Shown here: positions 31,350-42,265 of the stretch, one piece after another | Layout of the letters: every line of letters starts with the position of its first letter | How positions within the stretch are numbered: position 1 is the first letter of the stretch | From: Phototrophicus methaneseepsis | Lineage (GTDB): Bacteria; Chloroflexota; Anaerolineae; Aggregatilineales; Phototrophicaceae | Assembly (NCBI RefSeq): GCF_015500095.1 | Contig: NZ_CP062983.1 | Span: 4,030,001 to 4,094,000, forward strand | Direction of reading: 5' to 3' | Length of the DNA stretch: 64,000 nt | The notes under the pieces: generated by a model | Database searches by the model: none | Told to the model about the DNA's origin: nothing | What the model saw: only the letters and a program-made list of their open reading frames with translations | Program-made: the position numbers and the translations under genes

Positions 31350-32189
31350 TTAAGCCAGTGCGCTCAGTACACCGGTGACGATCGTTTTCAAACGCGGCAC
31401 AATCACTTTACCCGCTTCCAATACCTCTTCGTGATTGGTTTCCAATTCACTATCTACATGATCAATCGCCACATTTGTAATGCCAGAGCACGCCATCACA
31501 CGCATACCCGCATGGCGCGCCACAAGCACTTCGTGCACAGTCGACATGCCAACAGCATTTGCGCCAATCGTCCGCAGCATACGGATTTCAGCCGGCGTCT
31601 CAAAGCTAGGGCCAGAAACCGCCGCATACACGCCTTCGTGCAGGGGGATATTGGCTTCTCTGGCAACGTCACGTGCGATGCCCCGCATCTCTCGATCATA
31701 AGCCTGTGCCAGCCCCACAAAGCGTGGCCCGATAGCATCATCATTTGGCCCCATCAAGGGGTTGCTGCCCGTCATACCTGGGAAATTGATATGGTCATTG
31801 ATGAGCATCACATCGCCAACGGAAAAACTGGGGTCTACCCCGCCTGCGGCGTTCGTCAGGATAAGCGTCTGTACGCCTAAAAAGTGCATCACACGGATCG
31901 GAAACGTGATTTGCTGCATGGTGTACCCTTCGTAAAAATGGGCACGTCCCTGCTGAGCGACAACCTGCTGCCCACTCAGCTCACCAATCACAAGGCGACC
32001 AGCATGTCCATGAACTGTCGAAGCAGGCCAACCTGGAATCTCCGCATAGGGGATCGCCACCGCATTTTCCAGGGTATCTGCCAAAGTACCCAACCCAGAA
32101 CCGAGTACCAGCCCGATCCGGGGCTGTATGGTCGTATGTTGGCGGATCGCTGCGACCGCCTGTTCATAGTCCGCTGTCGTATAGGTCAT
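31350..32189 (-). CDS. punA: Purine nucleoside phosphorylase, trimeric type
   Basis: Cleaves (deoxy)guanosine and inosine with phosphate, releasing the free base. Family elements are GLVLGSGLG (26-34), the phosphate-site stretch VHGHAGRLV, the AAGGVDP motif (about 115), the NDHIN segment, the base-site segment SGPSFETPAEIRML and GMSTVHEVLVARH. The length of 279 residues fits. ATG with GGGAG upstream. In this window its product (hypoxanthine or guanine) would feed the SsnA- and xanthine-dehydrogenase-type enzymes encoded further right; that link is inferred. Confidence 0.93.
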   Translation of the reverse strand: MTYTTADYEQAVAAIRQHTTIQPRIGLVLGSGLGTLADTLENAVAIPYAEIPGWPASTVHGHAGRLVIGELSGQQVVAQQGRAHFYEGYTMQQITFPIRVMHFLGVQTLILTNAAGGVDPSFSVGDVMLINDHINFPGMTGSNPLMGPNDDAIGPRFVGLAQAYDREMRGIARDVAREANIPLHEGVYAAVSGPSFETPAEIRMLRTIGANAVGMSTVHEVLVARHAGMRVMACSGITNVAIDHVDSELETNHEEVLEAGKVIVPRLKTIVTGVLSALA

Positions 32190-32918: not shown

Positions 32919-34283
32919 TTAGTCAAGTCGGTTCTGGCGCAACCCGGCGCGCAATCGCTCCTCGTAATAATCCGACGGCGTATCCACATCGCGAATCACA
33001 CTATCCGTATAGACCTTCACATAGGTGATGCGGTCTTCGTGCGCGTTAATCACGTCACGAGGTGTGGCATTATTCCGCAAAGCAAGGAACTCAGACCAGT
33101 AACGACGCCCCACCAGGATAGGATGCCCACGCCGCATCTGATAACTGGGGATCACGATATCGCCCACACCTTCCGCATAGGCTTTTAACACATCATAGAT
33201 GACGCGTGGCTGAATCCTGGGTTGGTCGCCCAGGACGAACATAGCCGCAGCGATGTGATCCGGCAGCGAACGCAACCCAGCCTTGAGCGAAGAGACCATC
33301 TCCCCGGTCCGGTAAGCACGGTTATGAACGACGCGCACGTCCATTGGTTTGACGATGCGCTTCACTTCTTCGGCATAATGCCCGGTGACGACAACGATAT
33401 GCTCCACGCGGGAACGAATAAGCTGCGTGATGATGTGCTCAATGATCGTCTGGCCGCTATCCCACGGCAGCAGCACCTTGGGCTGCCCCATCCGGCTGGA
33501 TTGCCCGCCCGCCAGGATAATCGCTGCAACTGGCCGCTGCACCTCGACCACGGGATCAGCGGAACGTGCCGAACCAATGGCAACACCATAAAGTTTGGGC
33601 GACTTCAGCGCGAGTTTGGCAATCAAGCGTGCCCGCGTGCGGAGATACCCTTCCTGCGGTGCCTGGTTCAAAAATGCGATGGCCCGCGCACGGTCCGGCA
33701 CATCTTTTAAGCCAAGCGTCTCATCACGCAGGACTTGCGCAATCCACGGAGAACGGACTTTACCGCCTTTGTAGAACCCAAAGCGATCAATCATCGCCTG
33801 TGGGTTCCCGACATGATCCTCATCAAGCGGTTTATCCAGCGCAGAAAGGCCGACCAGCGGCACCACAAGCGAAGTTTCTGGCGGAATAACAGGTTCATTG
33901 GCAGCAGGGGCCTTAAACGGTAACCCATGGGCGTTATCCGCCTCGACCAGCAGCACATCACTATCGACCGTATCCAGCAGTAACTGCATACGATCCATAG
34001 CAGGGCCATAGGCAGCCCCTTTTTCGATGTGGTCGTATAGGAACACAAACCGATGGTCCGTCAGTGCGTCGGAAATCGCCCGCGAACCAGCCGCCAACCG
34101 CATCCCATGCGGGAAAGAAGCCAATTGTTCTTCAGAAAGTTGTGTGGTTGTGGTAGCAAGCACACGCCAGCCAGATTCAGCCAGTTCATGACCGAGGGCC
34201 AGCATCGTCGATGTTTTACCACCTGCGCCCACAAAAGCGACCACATCGCCACGCACAACGTCAAATGCTTGGTGTAGTTTCAT
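32919..34283 (-). CDS. Fusion of YqeC-like accessory ATPase and MocA-type nucleotidyltransferase
   Basis: A 454-residue two-domain protein. Residues 1-245 match YqeC, an accessory protein of selenium-dependent molybdenum hydroxylases, with P-loop VGAGGKTS (18-25). Residues 250-454 match MocA/MobA-like cytidylyl- or guanylyltransferases: AAIILAGGQSSRMGQPK (253-269) and LGDQPR in the middle. MocA adds CMP to molybdopterin. In E. coli yqeC and mocA are separate neighbouring genes. The ATG at 34283 gives the usual YqeC N-terminus; an upstream TTG at 34352 would start inside a hairpin and was rejected. It is the last gene of the molybdenum hydroxylase block. Confidence 0.85.
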   Translation of the reverse strand: MKLHQAFDVVRGDVVAFVGAGGKTSTMLALGHELAESGWRVLATTTTQLSEEQLASFPHGMRLAAGSRAISDALTDHRFVFLYDHIEKGAAYGPAMDRMQLLLDTVDSDVLLVEADNAHGLPFKAPAANEPVIPPETSLVVPLVGLSALDKPLDEDHVGNPQAMIDRFGFYKGGKVRSPWIAQVLRDETLGLKDVPDRARAIAFLNQAPQEGYLRTRARLIAKLALKSPKLYGVAIGSARSADPVVEVQRPVAAIILAGGQSSRMGQPKVLLPWDSGQTIIEHIITQLIRSRVEHIVVVTGHYAEEVKRIVKPMDVRVVHNRAYRTGEMVSSLKAGLRSLPDHIAAAMFVLGDQPRIQPRVIYDVLKAYAEGVGDIVIPSYQMRRGHPILVGRRYWSEFLALRNNATPRDVINAHEDRITYVKVYTDSVIRDVDTPSDYYEERLRAGLRQNRLD

Positions 34284-34344
34284 CCATCGCTCGCACAATA
34301 CTTTGCGGATCTGCGATAAGGGAACAATCTGTTCAACGACAAAC

Positions 34345-34374
34345 ACTGGCAAGCAGGTCTTCCCGCTTGCCAGT
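34345..34374. repeat. Inverted repeat between xdhA-like gene and yqeC-mocA
   Basis: ACTGGCAAGC and GCTTGCCAGT form a perfect 10-bp stem around a 10-base loop. On the minus strand the following bases (GTGTTTGTCG) give only a poor U tract, so attenuation or mRNA protection is as likely as termination. Confidence 0.5.
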
Positions 34375-36774: not shown

Positions 36775-38541
36775 CTAGACGGCCATAGTGGGCATATTTT
36801 GGGATAGGCGCGCAATCTCTTTACTGAAGATGCGCCGCAATATGGCGATGGCTGTCGCATACGTCGGTTCAACCCCCATATAGGCCAAGTTGATCGCGCC
36901 CAGGTTTTGGCCGTGCTTCATGGGCGTATCCGATGCGTAATGCAAAAAGCCAATATCAAATGGCACCTGATACATGTTGACGATTTCGTCATTCGGGTGG
37001 CGCTTAGGCCGGAACGCTTCGTAAATCGCGGAAAGGTAGGGGCCGGATTCCATCTCAATATCCGTATAGCCCTCCCGATAGAAGACGCTCATATAGGTCT
37101 GGTTTTGCAAAAAGGTCCCTAACGCGGTGACGGCTTTCTGGTTATCAAGCGTATTGCCATAGGTCATATAGCGCTTAACGTCATCTGCAGAGAAGCAGTT
37201 ATCGAACAGGTAGGTATTCTGTGAATGCTCGTCATGCACCACATTCGGGATCATCACATCCCCTACCCGGCCATTGAGCGTGGCGGCCTTCCCCATAACA
37301 TAGACGCCGAGCAACTGAGCGACACGCTCGGAGATACGACTGAGAATTTCAAAGCCAGCCATGCCCAGCGGATAGTCAATATTGATGATCAGGGCATCGC
37401 TGGCCCCTAATCCGCTGATACCCAGGCCGCTCGCATCCTCAGCAGGCCGCAACCGTGGGTCCAGCCAGACAGGGTTCAGCTTACCCATATCGATAATCTG
37501 CGCTTCGATCTGGAAGCCATGTTTATTAGGAACCCGATAAATCCCAACGCTGTGCTCCGCCTCTCGGACACGCTCCAACGCATTGGCCGCGTCATCCTGT
37601 AGGTACTTGCCAAGCACGTAATACAGGAAGTTCTCCAGGCTTTTATGACCATAACGCTGAATATCCTGATATTCTGCCAGCAGGGATTCGTAGTTATAGT
37701 TTTCAATATATTCGACAAGGCCTGTTTCGTGCCGACGCGCATATCCGGTAATCAGGTTGACAATCGAATGCGTGTTACTGGAGACAAAATAGACCGGGCG
37801 ATCTTCCGGGTCGATGCCATCCTCAGCAACGACTTTGCACAACTCTGACCACCAAGACGCCGTCGCACGGCGGTAATCTGAGAGAGACCCAGAAATCAGG
37901 CCAACGGACATGTCCTTACGGTACTGCGACACTTTTAAGAGCGTATCAATCAGGTGACCCTGCCAGACAATCTCAAGGCGGCGCAGATCCGGCACGCTGA
38001 CGTGCAGGGCTGTCGCCAGATAAGTGCTCTCCTGCTCAGAAAGCTGATCCTGCTGGCCCGCGCGCTCCAACAGCCAATCCTGAGCGACACTATCTTGCAG
38101 CAGCATATGCAGCTTATTCCACTCCATCTGGAAAGCCACCAGAATAGGGACAAGATCATCAATATCGGAGCGGCTGGCAATAAAGGCTACCAGCGTGCTC
38201 TTACCGTCGAATTGCATCCGGCGACGACGACCCGGCGCATAAACGCGCTCCCATTCCGCAATATCTTCATACCCCGCCTGGACAAAAGAACGCTCCGTCT
38301 GGCCGATCCAGACGCGCTTAACATCCAGAATGCAGTATGGCAAACGCAACGCAGCATACAAAAACGCCGACATATCTGGGTCTAACTCCCCTGCATTGAC
38401 ATGCAGCGAAGAGTTCATTGCCATATGGCTTTCTTCAAGTGTTTCAATGTCGAAGGGGTGGCTGGAGCGCAGCAAAGAATAATACGTGCGCATATATAGT
38501 TGGATTTCATCGCCAATGCGGCGGGGTACAGTTCTTTCCAT
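36775..38541 (-). CDS. Uncharacterised protein with nucleoside-phosphorylase-like C-terminal region
   Basis: A 588-residue protein that I do not recognise as a named family with known activity. The first 330 residues are helical, without signal or membrane segment. The last 200 contain three elements that resemble the PNP/UDP phosphorylase and AMP nucleosidase superfamily: ALIINIDYPLGMAGFEIL (383-400), LNGRVGDVMIPNVVHDEH (422-439) and DIEMESGPYLSAIYEAF (494-510), where EMES recalls the ribose-binding glutamate motif. It sits inside the molybdenum hydroxylase block, between the large subunit and the fused FAD/2Fe-2S subunit, which fits purine nucleotide metabolism. Start ATG 38541; no strong Shine-Dalgarno. 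Confidence 0.7.
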   Translation of the reverse strand: MERTVPRRIGDEIQLYMRTYYSLLRSSHPFDIETLEESHMAMNSSLHVNAGELDPDMSAFLYAALRLPYCILDVKRVWIGQTERSFVQAGYEDIAEWERVYAPGRRRRMQFDGKSTLVAFIASRSDIDDLVPILVAFQMEWNKLHMLLQDSVAQDWLLERAGQQDQLSEQESTYLATALHVSVPDLRRLEIVWQGHLIDTLLKVSQYRKDMSVGLISGSLSDYRRATASWWSELCKVVAEDGIDPEDRPVYFVSSNTHSIVNLITGYARRHETGLVEYIENYNYESLLAEYQDIQRYGHKSLENFLYYVLGKYLQDDAANALERVREAEHSVGIYRVPNKHGFQIEAQIIDMGKLNPVWLDPRLRPAEDASGLGISGLGASDALIINIDYPLGMAGFEILSRISERVAQLLGVYVMGKAATLNGRVGDVMIPNVVHDEHSQNTYLFDNCFSADDVKRYMTYGNTLDNQKAVTALGTFLQNQTYMSVFYREGYTDIEMESGPYLSAIYEAFRPKRHPNDEIVNMYQVPFDIGFLHYASDTPMKHGQNLGAINLAYMGVEPTYATAIAILRRIFSKEIARLSQNMPTMAV

Positions 38542-38721: not shown

Positions 38722-39120
38722 TTATAAGTCATTCCGGTTGCGTTCACGCATTCGACGGCGCATTTCTTTCCGGCGACGATCTTTGGCCCTTTCCTCAGCA
38801 GCTCTTTCTTGCTTCAGCCGATCAAGTTCACGTTCAGTGACATATGTCGCTTTGGCTGGCTTTGGCGCAACGACCGCGTAAAGTGCCGCAGTGATCCCCA
38901 GGCATAGGAGGAATATCACGATGCCCACGACAAGCTGTACTTCTGGGGCGGCAGGTACCTGTGGGAAGGTACGCAGAACAAACGTGTAGAGCGGTTCAGA
39001 TAAGATATAAGCAATTGCAGCAGAAGCAAACGCCAGCAGAAGCCCAAACAGGGGGGCTAGTGCCCGGTTCCAGTTGCGGCGTCTGGATTGCTTCAGGCCA
39101 CCATCATCATTAAAACCCAT
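38722..39120 (-). CDS. Small two-helix membrane protein with basic C-terminus
   Basis: A 132-residue protein. Two membrane helices are visible at about 20-40 (LAPLFGLLLAFASAAIAYIL) and about 58-80 (VQLVVGIVIFLLCLGITAAL). The cytoplasmic C-terminus (about 95-132) is an Arg/Lys/Glu-rich helix (RKEMRRRMRERNRNDL). The ATG at 39120 has GAGGAG eight bases upstream; that site overlaps the stop of the fused FAD/2Fe-2S gene, so the genes are coupled. Function unknown; membrane tethering is one possibility. Confidence 0.75.
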   Translation of the reverse strand: MGFNDDGGLKQSRRRNWNRALAPLFGLLLAFASAAIAYILSEPLYTFVLRTFPQVPAAPEVQLVVGIVIFLLCLGITAALYAVVAPKPAKATYVTERELDRLKQERAAEERAKDRRRKEMRRRMRERNRNDL

Positions 39121-39124
39121 TATG

Positions 39125-40597
39125 TTACTCCTCGTCAGTGGTTCCCCTCGGTTGATCAATAACGGGCTGACTCGCTTGTTTTGCCAATGTCGCTGCTTCC
39201 TTTACGGCATTGATAATGGCGTAGTAGCCCGTACAGCGGCATAAGTTGCCACTGATGCTATGATGAATTTGCTCATTGGTTGGGTCAGGATGTTCTTCAA
39301 TGAGCTTGGCGCCCGCCATAACAAAACCTGGCGTGCAATAGCCACATTGTACAGCAGCTTGGTTCACAAATGCCTGTTGGATTGGGTGCAGTTCATCATT
39401 TGGGCACAGTCCCTCAATGGTGACGATAGACGCCCCATGGGCACGTGGTGCCGGGACCATGCAAGCCATCACCGCCGCGCCATCCAGGTAGACTGTGCAA
39501 GCGCCACATTCCCCCTCGGCGCACCCTTCTTTGGAGCCTGTCAGGCCAACATCTTCTCGCAACCAATCCAACAGGGTTTTATCCTGCCCTGTCGCTACGG
39601 AATACGATTTGCCGTTGATGGTGGCTACAATGGATGAATCAGCCTGATGTTCAACAGGTGATGCTAGCCCATTGCCATTGACGCGCGCTTGATGCGCACC
39701 CCACAGCATAGCCGGGTCCTGGGGGAAGCTGCTCGCTTCTTCACCCGCGGCCAGAATACGCAATGCCCGCGCCACCAATACCTTCACCATCTCGCTGCGG
39801 TATTCAGCCGTACTACGGACGTCCTTAATCGGCTGCGGCACACTCGCTGCCACACGGGCGACTTCACGGATTGTTTCTTCATTGAGTGTGCGCCCAACCA
39901 AAGCTTCTTCAGCCGCTCCGACACGAATCACCGTTGGCGCAACACTACCCAGGCTGATACGTGCGGCTTCAACCACCTCGCCAGAGAATCGCAGCACGAC
40001 CGCCGCATTCACGACTGAGATCGCTTGCGTCCGGCGCAGGCCAAGCTTAAGAAAGACGCCGCGCTCATTCGGCTTCAGAGCCGGGAAGGTAATCTCCGTA
40101 AGCATCTCGTTCGGCGCCATGACAGAGCGACGCAAGCCCGTGTAGAAATCTGCAAGGGGCACCACACGCTCACCCTCAACAGATGTCAACGTCACAGCAG
40201 CGTTCATGGCCAGCAGGGGCGCAATCGTATCATTGGCAGGGCTGCCCGTTATGAGGTTGCCAGCCACCGTCGCGCGATTGCGGATCTGTGGTGCGCCAAC
40301 TTCCCAGCAAGCCAGCGCCAGGGGTAAGCCCCGCTCCACCACCAGCTCACTCCCTACAATGTGATTATGCGTTACCAGCGGCCCCAGATGAATGATGCCA
40401 TCCTCGTCAAGCGTAATCACATCTAGCCCAGGCACGCGCGTAATATCAATTAAGCAGGAAACACCAGAGCGTTTACCTTGCTCCATTTCAATAATGATAT
40501 CCGTGCCACCTGCGATAACGCGTGCTGTCTCGCCATATTCATTGAGTAGTGAAAGTGCTTCTGCCAGCGTCGTGACGCTTTCGTAACGATCCCACAT
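39125..40597 (-). CDS. Fused FAD-binding and 2Fe-2S subunit of a molybdenum hydroxylase
   Basis: A 490-residue fusion that passes electrons from the molybdenum centre. Residues 1-285 are a CoxM/XdhB-like FAD domain (AGGTD at 29-33, TVAGNLITGSPANDT at 110-124). Residues 325-490 are a CoxS-like iron-sulfur domain with C359, C364, C367 and C379 for the plant-type cluster and C418, C421, C453 and C455 for the second cluster (QCGYCTPG, CRCTGY). The FAD domain is N-terminal, the reverse of eukaryotic xanthine dehydrogenase where the iron-sulfur domain comes first. ATG at 40597 with AAGGTAG upstream. Confidence 0.92.
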   Translation of the reverse strand: MWDRYESVTTLAEALSLLNEYGETARVIAGGTDIIIEMEQGKRSGVSCLIDITRVPGLDVITLDEDGIIHLGPLVTHNHIVGSELVVERGLPLALACWEVGAPQIRNRATVAGNLITGSPANDTIAPLLAMNAAVTLTSVEGERVVPLADFYTGLRRSVMAPNEMLTEITFPALKPNERGVFLKLGLRRTQAISVVNAAVVLRFSGEVVEAARISLGSVAPTVIRVGAAEEALVGRTLNEETIREVARVAASVPQPIKDVRSTAEYRSEMVKVLVARALRILAAGEEASSFPQDPAMLWGAHQARVNGNGLASPVEHQADSSIVATINGKSYSVATGQDKTLLDWLREDVGLTGSKEGCAEGECGACTVYLDGAAVMACMVPAPRAHGASIVTIEGLCPNDELHPIQQAFVNQAAVQCGYCTPGFVMAGAKLIEEHPDPTNEQIHHSISGNLCRCTGYYAIINAVKEAATLAKQASQPVIDQPRGTTDEE

Positions 40598-40671
40598 TGT
40601 TGTTCTACCTTGAGTGACTAGCAAATGAGAGCATATTTTTCGTTTTATAGCGATCTTGTTGAAGCTTCTCG

Positions 40672-41362: not shown

Positions 41363-42223
41363 TCACTTAGCCTCATCACCGACATATTCCACAGGGGCAT
41401 TTGCATCCGCTGATCCCATCCAATGCATCGGGGTCCCTGTTCCCCCTCGGCGTACCATTGTGATTTCCGCCAGGATGCTGAGGGCGATCTCTTTTGGCGT
41501 TTCCGCCTCCAATTCCAGGCCAATGGGAGACCGAACCCGGGATAGCTGGTCATGTGTTAAACCGTATTTTTCTTTGAGCGCTGCAACCGTCAGCGCCCAG
41601 CGGCGGCGGCTGCCAATCAGGCCAATATAGGGCGATGGTGTCGCCAGGAGGGCCGGGATTAAGTTCACATCAATGGGCAGACCGCGCGTTACAGCCGCCA
41701 CATAGGTGCGCGCTGTAATCGGCACCTGCTCCACGACCGCTTCCACAGCACATTCAACATAGACATCCATCCCAGAGACATTCGCTTCGCTGGCAAAGCC
41801 GGGGCGATCATCCGTCACAACAACACGGTATCCCATCCATTTACCCAACTCCGCAACGGCCTTACCAACATGCCCTGCTCCGATCACAAGCAGCGTCGGC
41901 GCAGTATTAAGCGGCTCGATGTAAATACGCGCTGTACCGCCGCAGATACCGGGATCACCATCCGCAGGGTTGTTCAGGTTGTAGGTCTTGATGCGCGCCT
42001 CACCATCAGCAATGGCGGCAATGGCTTCTTCAATGACTCTGGATTCCATCGAGCCACCCCCAATCGTGCCGACGATATGCCCATCTTGATAGACGAGCAT
42101 CTTGCTCCCACTATGGCGCGGGATGGATCCCTGCGTCTGTATGATGGTGGCAAGGGCCACGCTGGCCCCCGCATCATGGGCAGCTAAAAGCGCTTCGTAG
42201 ACATCTCGATTGTCATCAGCCAT
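41363..42223 (-). CDS. xdhC: XdhC/CoxI-family molybdenum hydroxylase maturation protein
   Basis: Binds molybdenum cofactor and delivers the sulfurated form to xanthine dehydrogenase; it also protects the cofactor. The N-terminal XdhC/CoxI domain has the segment VALATIIQTQGSIPRHSGSK and GTIGGGSMESRV; the C-terminal Rossmann domain starts with LLVIGAGHVGKAVAELG. Length is 286 residues. The ATG at 42223 with TTGGAG seven bases upstream was chosen over the frame to 42247. It is upstream of the hydroxylase subunit genes, as expected for its role. Confidence 0.93.
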   Translation of the reverse strand: MADDNRDVYEALLAAHDAGASVALATIIQTQGSIPRHSGSKMLVYQDGHIVGTIGGGSMESRVIEEAIAAIADGEARIKTYNLNNPADGDPGICGGTARIYIEPLNTAPTLLVIGAGHVGKAVAELGKWMGYRVVVTDDRPGFASEANVSGMDVYVECAVEAVVEQVPITARTYVAAVTRGLPIDVNLIPALLATPSPYIGLIGSRRRWALTVAALKEKYGLTHDQLSRVRSPIGLELEAETPKEIALSILAEITMVRRGGTGTPMHWMGSADANAPVEYVGDEAK

Positions 42224-42265
42224 GCTTAACTCCAACCTCATCGGCACTGTTAGCCAACGATGTCC

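Follow-up and report, generated by a model that had tools for sequence, protein, structure and literature searches.

What does the protein encoded between the subunit genes of a molybdenum hydroxylase in Phototrophicus methaneseepsis do? We analyzed a 64,000-nucleotide stretch of this genome (NZ_CP062983.1, positions 4,030,001 to 4,094,000; here called the window), in which an open frame of 588 codons runs from 36775 to 38541 on the minus strand. The initial annotation, made from the letters of this stretch, drew attention to nucleoside-phosphorylase-like motifs in the C-terminal region, preceded by a long helical region "of no known family," and left the strand unstated. The gene and the two domains of its product are as follows.

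36775..38541, minus strand: DUF6909 gene (588 aa) for a proposed AMP-nucleosidase-like purine N-glycosidase of NP-I fold (PF21850, E 2.5e-226)
36778..37935, minus strand: C-terminal NP-I-like catalytic domain, residues 203-588 (AF2 pTM 0.77, Foldseek, VIA)
37936..38541, minus strand: N-terminal domain of alpha/beta type (residues 1-202), with no sequence resemblance to that of AMP nucleosidase

The protein does belong to a named family. Residues 32-573 match Pfam PF21850 (DUF6909) over model positions 1-535 of 535, with 752.6 bits against a gathering score of 27, and the protein is a full-length member that does not differ from the family. Its start, Met-Glu-Arg-Thr, is identical in a related contig from a metagenome-assembled genome (MAG; L002), and in the host genome (a single contig of 5.63 Mb) it matches only itself. 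NCBIfam profiles gave nothing on the protein. Literature searches on DUF6909 and PF21850, and on NP-I superfamily terms, found no paper; a search combining AMP nucleosidase with Chloroflexi returned only one match, which going by its listing concerns Chlamydiales. For the family alignment, 62 of 75 ORFs were used, after removal of 12 duplicates and one truncated copy; two relatives from Bacteroidota, roughly 25% identical, were compared separately. The motifs seen initially are in place (i.e., GRVGDVMIP at residues 424-432 and EMES at residues 496-499), and they do follow a long N-terminal part; this part, however, is not only helical but is predicted to be alpha/beta, with strands at residues 76-80, 98-100, 109-111, and 116-120. 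Since G427-D428 and E496-M497-E498 are invariant in all 62 homologs and in the two Bacteroidota relatives, the motifs are not due to chance.

The fold was examined with AlphaFold (AF2) models, which were searched with Foldseek and VIA-align 2. The full-length model has a mean pLDDT of 64.8, with much of residues 418-443, 459-524, and 534-559 under 50. Its best 50 Foldseek matches are all NP-I enzymes, none of them below E 0.05, and its best 50 VIA-align matches (residues 218-580, Z approximately 9 to 10) are likewise all NP-I. The template-free model of residues 203-588 has a mean pLDDT of 67.0 and a pTM of 0.77, with pLDDT <50 at domain positions 276-294, 296-299, and 337-355 (i.e., around the Met-Glu pair and just past the Asp discussed below). 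For this model, the first-ranked Foldseek match is the Salmonella AMP nucleosidase 2guw_B (E 6.9e-5, probability 1.00), 59 matches reach E 0.001, and the best 50 are again all NP-I enzymes; the TM-scores among these 50 are low (query, 0.20-0.38; target, up to 0.52; rmsd, 7-14), those of the first-ranked match being 0.34 and 0.32. The best 50 VIA matches are also all NP-I enzymes, including a uridine phosphorylase (Z 12.7, rmsd 3.9, 220 aligned) and the Escherichia coli AMP nucleosidase (AMN) 1t8r (Z 12.6, rmsd 5.7, 238 aligned). The phosphorylase fold, which the initial annotation had expected structure prediction to reveal, is thus present in both the full-length and the 203-588 models by Foldseek and VIA. 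According to these models, the C-terminal domain of DUF6909 very probably has the nucleoside phosphorylase-I (NP-I) fold.

Sequence methods alone do not establish this homology. The HMM comparison with the PNP superfamily that had been suggested as a check came out negative, none of the 62 members matching PF01048 (hmmscan, E up to 10), and searches of the PDB with phmmer and with the DUF6909 family profile retrieved no NP-I chain. PADLOC and PHROGs profiles returned nothing useful on DUF6909. An NP-I profile reported 60 of the 62 DUF6909 proteins (best score, 11.0 bits; 28 above 0) and 288 of 543 background ORFs (best score, 7.7; 26 above 0; true PNP genes among the top rows), so that DUF6909 scores only slightly over background; with an AMN-only profile, it does no better than background (best score, 2.5 versus 6.1). 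Initial hhalign runs did not reach significance; against AMNs alone, before the Bacteroidota sequences were included, the real score (17.7) was lower than that of the reversed control (18.8). Once the two Bacteroidota members had been added and the family realigned, the score against AMNs alone was 21.3, versus 19.2 for the reversed control. Alignment of DUF6909 with ten NP-I sequences scored 27.3 over 142 columns (reversed control, 15.4), and that of 64 DUF6909 catalytic domains with 50 NP-I sequences scored 24.0 over 151 columns (highest of 40 column-shuffled controls, 18.3; reversed control, 15.0). The HHsuite probability of these DUF6909/NP-I alignments is 2-4%, and we regard the profile-profile comparison as weak backing for an NP-I relation, although its register, the same as in the structural comparison, is informative. 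The aligned pairs (DUF6909/NP-I) are NIDYPLG/NIGVGPS, GKAATLN/GHCGGL, GDVMI/GDYVL, DEHS/DDHV, IEMES/IDMES, and ASDTP/VSDKP. The conserved blocks occur in the same order as in the AMP nucleosidase Amn. Their spacings (computed from hand-entered block positions) deviate by 1 to 9 residues, apart from two places where DUF6909 has about 60 extra residues between the first and second Asn and 17 extra residues before the Asp.

Among known systems, Amn (EC 3.2.2.4; 1t8r, 2guw, 7uwq) thus resembles DUF6909 in predicted fold (DUF6909 residues 218-580 versus Amn residues 176-469), in block order, in the Met-Glu pair and the Asp, and in the Asn and Lys positions typical of Amn. It differs in that DUF6909 has no sequence homology to it by Pfam or phmmer, has an N-terminal domain unrelated by sequence, and does not conserve the equivalents of Arg381 and Lys436. 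The short Bacteroidota AMNs also lack PF10423, judging by their length. The PF01048 family (PNP_UDP_1; PNP, UP, MTAN, and futalosine hydrolase) shares with DUF6909 the NP-I fold of the predicted model and the GD and EME motifs, but the UP and MTAN relatives compared mostly have Gly/Ala and Ser/Thr where DUF6909 has Asn and Lys.

NP-I enzymes contact the ribose through Glu and Met, protonate N7 of the purine through Asp, and let water or phosphate attack C1'. The candidate active-site residues of the window protein are listed below.

37048..37053, minus strand: Met497-Glu498, opposite the NP-I Met-Glu pair, invariant; corresponding to M404/E405 in Klebsiella Amn (PMC9584410)
36928..36930, minus strand: Asp538, opposite AMP nucleosidase Asp428, invariant and hhalign-aligned
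37288..37290, minus strand: Lys418 in GKAATLN, opposite GHCGGL/GKCGGL of AMP nucleosidases, invariant and hhalign-aligned
37774..37776, minus strand: Asn256, following the first strand predicted in the NP-I domain, putatively opposite AMP nucleosidase Asn205 (by position), invariant

In Klebsiella Amn, N205, W383, M404, E405, and D428 surround the base and sugar, and R381 and K436, together with H188-Y189 from the facing chain, make up the phosphate surroundings (PMC9584410). Among the structural homologs of Amn, active-site conservation is reported to be limited to M404, E405, and D428 (PMC9584410). The counterparts of these last three residues in DUF6909, as placed by motif register, are M497, E498, and D538, which are kept in all 62 Chloroflexota members and in both Bacteroidota relatives; retention of the aligned Glu across homologs, one of two residue tests set by the initial annotation, was thereby borne out. 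The other concerned the phosphate residues, and here the outcome was the opposite, R381 and K436 having no conserved counterpart. Position 481, opposite R381, is Arg in 45 of the 62 members and Gln in the window protein, and no invariant Lys lies past the catalytic Asp where K436 would be expected (position 546 is Asn/Thr, and position 545 is Lys in 31/62). The counterpart of W383 is at best Tyr483 (50/62), and that of His188-Tyr189 may be Tyr223 (46/62), an uncertain equivalence.

The remaining positions were compared with a signature (Asn205 plus His/Lys305) that we defined here from seven AMNs rather than taking it from the literature. All seven AMNs have Asn at position 205 and His/Lys at position 305, and the 43 other NP-I proteins compared have neither (some of them are gapped at position 205). 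Asn at position 277 is present in 7/7 AMNs and 1/43 others. In DUF6909, N256 and K418 are kept throughout the Chloroflexota members and the Bacteroidota relatives, and N387 is kept in 62/62 members and lost in the relatives from Persicobacter (Bacteroidota). By sequence comparison, Asn256 and Lys418 appear to follow the AMP-nucleosidase pattern, Asn256 by position only, as its placing opposite N205 relies on its location past the first strand and not on residue-level alignment.

The phosphate site leads to the N-terminal domain, for which one further feature is needed.

38221..38229, minus strand: Arg105-Arg106-Arg107, candidate phosphate-binding triplet (role inferred), in 62/62 members and both Bacteroidota relatives

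Residues 1-202 match no other convincing Pfam family, and PF10423 (AMNp_N) is absent from the Pfam matches of DUF6909 members. Homology to the AMN N-terminal domain found no support, the hhalign score (11.2) lying within the range of the controls (shuffles up to 17.8; reversed, 11.8). The N-terminal positions invariant in 62/62 members include R105-R106-R107, S123, S125, D126, D129, P132, Q138, E140, and K143, of which the Bacteroidota relatives also keep the Arg triplet, S125, D129, E140, and K143. The Arg triplet and Lys143 may bind an anionic group, either the phosphate of a substrate or a regulator. Because the Arg and Lys phosphate residues of AMNs are missing, we argue that the phosphate site has been rebuilt.

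Building on the computed fold, residue conservation, and neighborhood, we infer a possible scheme for the chemistry, the substrate, the route, and the role of the N-terminal domain. In it, the ribose would be bound by Met497-Glu498 and N7 of the purine protonated by Asp538, with Asn256, Asn387, and Lys418 in the positions typical of AMP nucleosidases. Water (or phosphate) would attack C1', most likely hydrolyzing the N-glycosidic bond in a purine nucleoside or nucleotide to give the free base; part of the binding of a 5'-phosphate would come from the Arg-rich N-terminal domain. In Anaerolineae such as this one, the freed base may feed the neighboring xanthine dehydrogenase; adenine would be converted to hypoxanthine by adenine deaminase, encoded elsewhere in the genome, before reaching that dehydrogenase. 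Given the modeled fold and the conserved residues, DUF6909 is likely to be an active purine N-glycosidase or phosphorylase. On balance, it would be a divergent AMP-nucleosidase-like purine N-glycosidase, i.e., an NP-I member overlooked by sequence searches. That its substrate is AMP or a different purine nucleotide is possible, if slightly doubtful, and the AMN-type Asn and Lys positions favor a nucleotide hydrolase.

An enzyme acting on an unphosphorylated or modified nucleoside such as 5'-deoxyadenosine or methylthioadenosine, whether a PNP or a nucleosidase, would fit several of the same observations: NP-I includes phosphorylases as well as hydrolases, VIA ties uridine phosphorylase with AMN, the AMN phosphate residues are missing, and an E. 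coli MTAN query found no match at E 0.001 in the host genome. We consider this reading unlikely. The pattern of Asn256 and Lys418 appears to be that of AMNs and unlike that of UP, DeoD, and MTAN relatives, the invariant Arg triplet points to an anionic group, and the genome already has three PF01048 proteins, which we interpret as a PNP, an MTA phosphorylase, and a uridine-phosphorylase-like protein. The last of these (C1:1428612-1429187 of the host genome, G000; L098) is diverged. A non-catalytic purine sensor or regulator, in which the NP-I fold binds a base or nucleotide, is improbable: the extra 200-residue N-terminal domain and the varied neighbors of DUF6909 genes, some of them regulators or ion transporters, would suit such a role, but the ribose- and purine-contact residues are invariant (62/62 and 2/2) beyond the needs of binding alone, and Pfam finds no DNA-binding or signaling domain in the protein.

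The favored purine N-glycosidase must also be set against its genomic surroundings, which in the window comprise the following genes.

31350..32189, minus strand: purine nucleoside phosphorylase (PF01048, E 2.6e-56), 4.6 kb from DUF6909
32919..34352, minus strand: fused YqeC/MocA-like protein, 477 aa
34434..36665, minus strand: xanthine-dehydrogenase-like Mo subunit, below the NCBIfam equivalog cut-offs
38722..39159, minus strand: predicted membrane protein, 145 aa, also beside DUF6909 in L002 and L036
39125..40624, minus strand: fused FAD/2Fe-2S subunit of the same hydroxylase (Pfam, NCBIfam)
41363..42247, minus strand: XdhC-type maturation factor

The initial annotation was right to place the gene between the hydroxylase subunits, between which the gene for the small membrane protein also lies; the gaps beside DUF6909 are 180 and 109 bp, and maturation genes flank the block of hydroxylase and DUF6909 genes on both sides. 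We compared 44 stretches (the window; MAG contigs L002, L004, and L005; and 40 others), 7 of which are under 15 kb owing to contig ends. By clustering and phmmer, the FAD/2Fe-2S subunit was found in 5 of the 44 (the window, L002, L004, L005, and L041), the Mo subunit in 3 (the window, L002, and L004), and the PNP in 3 (the window, L002, and L036). DUF6909 lies between the FAD and Mo genes with one other gene also between them in the window and L002, and with two in L004. The Mo subunit gene of L004 starts 14 bp past DUF6909, the neighbor 3 bp upstream being a sulfotransferase gene, and in L005, which stops just past DUF6909, only 11 bp separate the end of the FAD subunit gene from DUF6909. As the L004 and L005 proteins are only 49-50% identical to the window protein yet have the same neighbors, the genes have long been together in this class. 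The Mo subunit keeps the Glu of GGAFGGRE and the Arg of AFRGFG in the three copies checked, residues that align with E802 and R880 of bovine XDH, the marks of xanthine dehydrogenase. As judged from its sequence, the subunit would fit a purine substrate on the strength of this Glu and Arg, despite scores below the cut-offs for named XDHs in NCBIfam. The host genome encodes an adenine deaminase (478.9 bits; curated cut-off, 472.5), and its APRT matches are below the cut-off.

Several further features of these neighborhoods were noted. The protein directly upstream of DUF6909 in the window (38722-39159, minus strand), L002 (9337-9855), and L036 (11019-11429) has 136-172 aa, two hydrophobic stretches from which its membrane nature is read, and no convincing family. 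The YqeC and MocA-like fusion (32919-34352) is named by NCBIfam as a YqeC selenium cofactor biosynthesis protein, and from this name the neighboring hydroxylase might carry an unusual cofactor. The order of FAD and then 2Fe-2S in 39125-40624 (minus strand) and in L041 (5001-6500) is the reverse of that in the XDH small subunit profile TIGR02963. In one lineage, a carbohydrate phosphorylase gene lies shortly before DUF6909 or overlaps it (L066, 10432-13113, and L067, 2540-4849, both Pfam-checked; L075, 9189-12203, by clustering).

At other loci, the neighbors are unrelated (carbonic anhydrase, DNA methylase, glucan phosphorylase, aminotransferase, amino-acid permease, Nramp, and others), and among the 131 of 155 neighbors within two genes that were tallied (24 were left out), no family occurs more than 5 times. 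The FAD subunit family is absent from 39 of the 44 stretches, the 7 shortened by contig ends included in the count. MoCoBD_1 matches occur in 92 of 100 DUF6909-positive genomes and in 159 of 201 others (counted by hand, kinship uncontrolled); this domain is too common in the phylum for co-occurrence to serve as evidence, and we gave it no weight. Of the 8 positive genomes without a MoCoBD_1 match, four are <90% complete and four are at least 91% complete. With the FAD subunit missing from 39/44 stretches and the Mo-hydroxylase from 8/100 genomes, context cannot define the function of the family. An assembly or maturation factor for the molybdenum hydroxylase (e.g., one handling a nucleotide-bearing cofactor), which the position between the FAD and Mo subunit genes in the window, L002, and L004 and the 14-bp and 11-bp gaps in L004 and L005 might suggest, is very unlikely in view of those 39 stretches and of the 8 genomes (four at least 91% complete) lacking MoCoBD_1. 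A connection with purine breakdown is plausible in this lineage, where the Mo-subunit Glu and Arg, the PNP 4.6 kb away, and the recurrence of the neighborhood in L004 and L005 speak for it, but it does not extend to the family as a whole.

To describe the distribution of DUF6909, we drew 301 Chloroflexota genomes evenly across the phylum (179 genera) together with 14 control genomes. PF21850 was found in 100 of the 301 genomes and 65 of the 179 genera, and in none of the controls. The gene is usually single-copy, two matches occurring in only 5 of the 100 positive genomes; in G097, G244, and G272 they look like pieces of one gene, broken up or truncated by the end of a contig; in G025 they are partial and overlap each other; and in G233 they represent two almost complete copies. 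A contig scan reaching close relatives only found four DUF6909 loci, all in contigs titled as Chloroflexota MAGs. A plasmid search found relatives on two plasmids of Persicobacter (24% identity over 89% of the query), and a Persicobacter relative scanned with Pfam is DUF6909 (E 1.5e-64). On plasmid pPP3 of Persicobacter psychrovividus (L099, 4910-7524), the distant DUF6909 gene is annotated as hypothetical and lies 20 bp after a class I SAM methyltransferase gene (PF10672). A methyltransferase partner was considered, as a methylase-like gene precedes DUF6909 in five loci and another does so in Persicobacter; no relationship could be detected between these two kinds of gene, and the idea was dropped. 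Phage records searched with DUF6909 gave no match, and no relative was confirmed on viral contigs; a defense or phage origin was set aside, with no PADLOC match either and nothing below E 0.2 in the viral structure library. PF10423, the AMP nucleosidase N-terminal domain, occurs in none of the 301 Chloroflexota genomes, a search to which short AMNs without PF10423 are invisible.

DUF6909 very probably adds a new and strongly diverged branch to a known superfamily and is not a new kind of system. A more specific reading, which we hold to be rather doubtful, is that Chloroflexota have in it their missing AMP nucleosidase, which would make a third nucleotide N-glycosidase lineage beside the long proteobacterial and the short Bacteroidota AMNs, and that its new N-terminal domain with the invariant Arg-Arg-Arg would supply a phosphate pocket or an allosteric site (for ATP, phosphate, or alarmone). 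One-third of the sampled Chloroflexota genomes (100/301) carry this highly conserved gene, and its placement in NP-I offers a concrete, cheap assay as well as residues to mutate. If DUF6909 cuts nucleotides, it would fill the step from AMP to adenine in a phylum in which PF10423 was found in 0/301 genomes.
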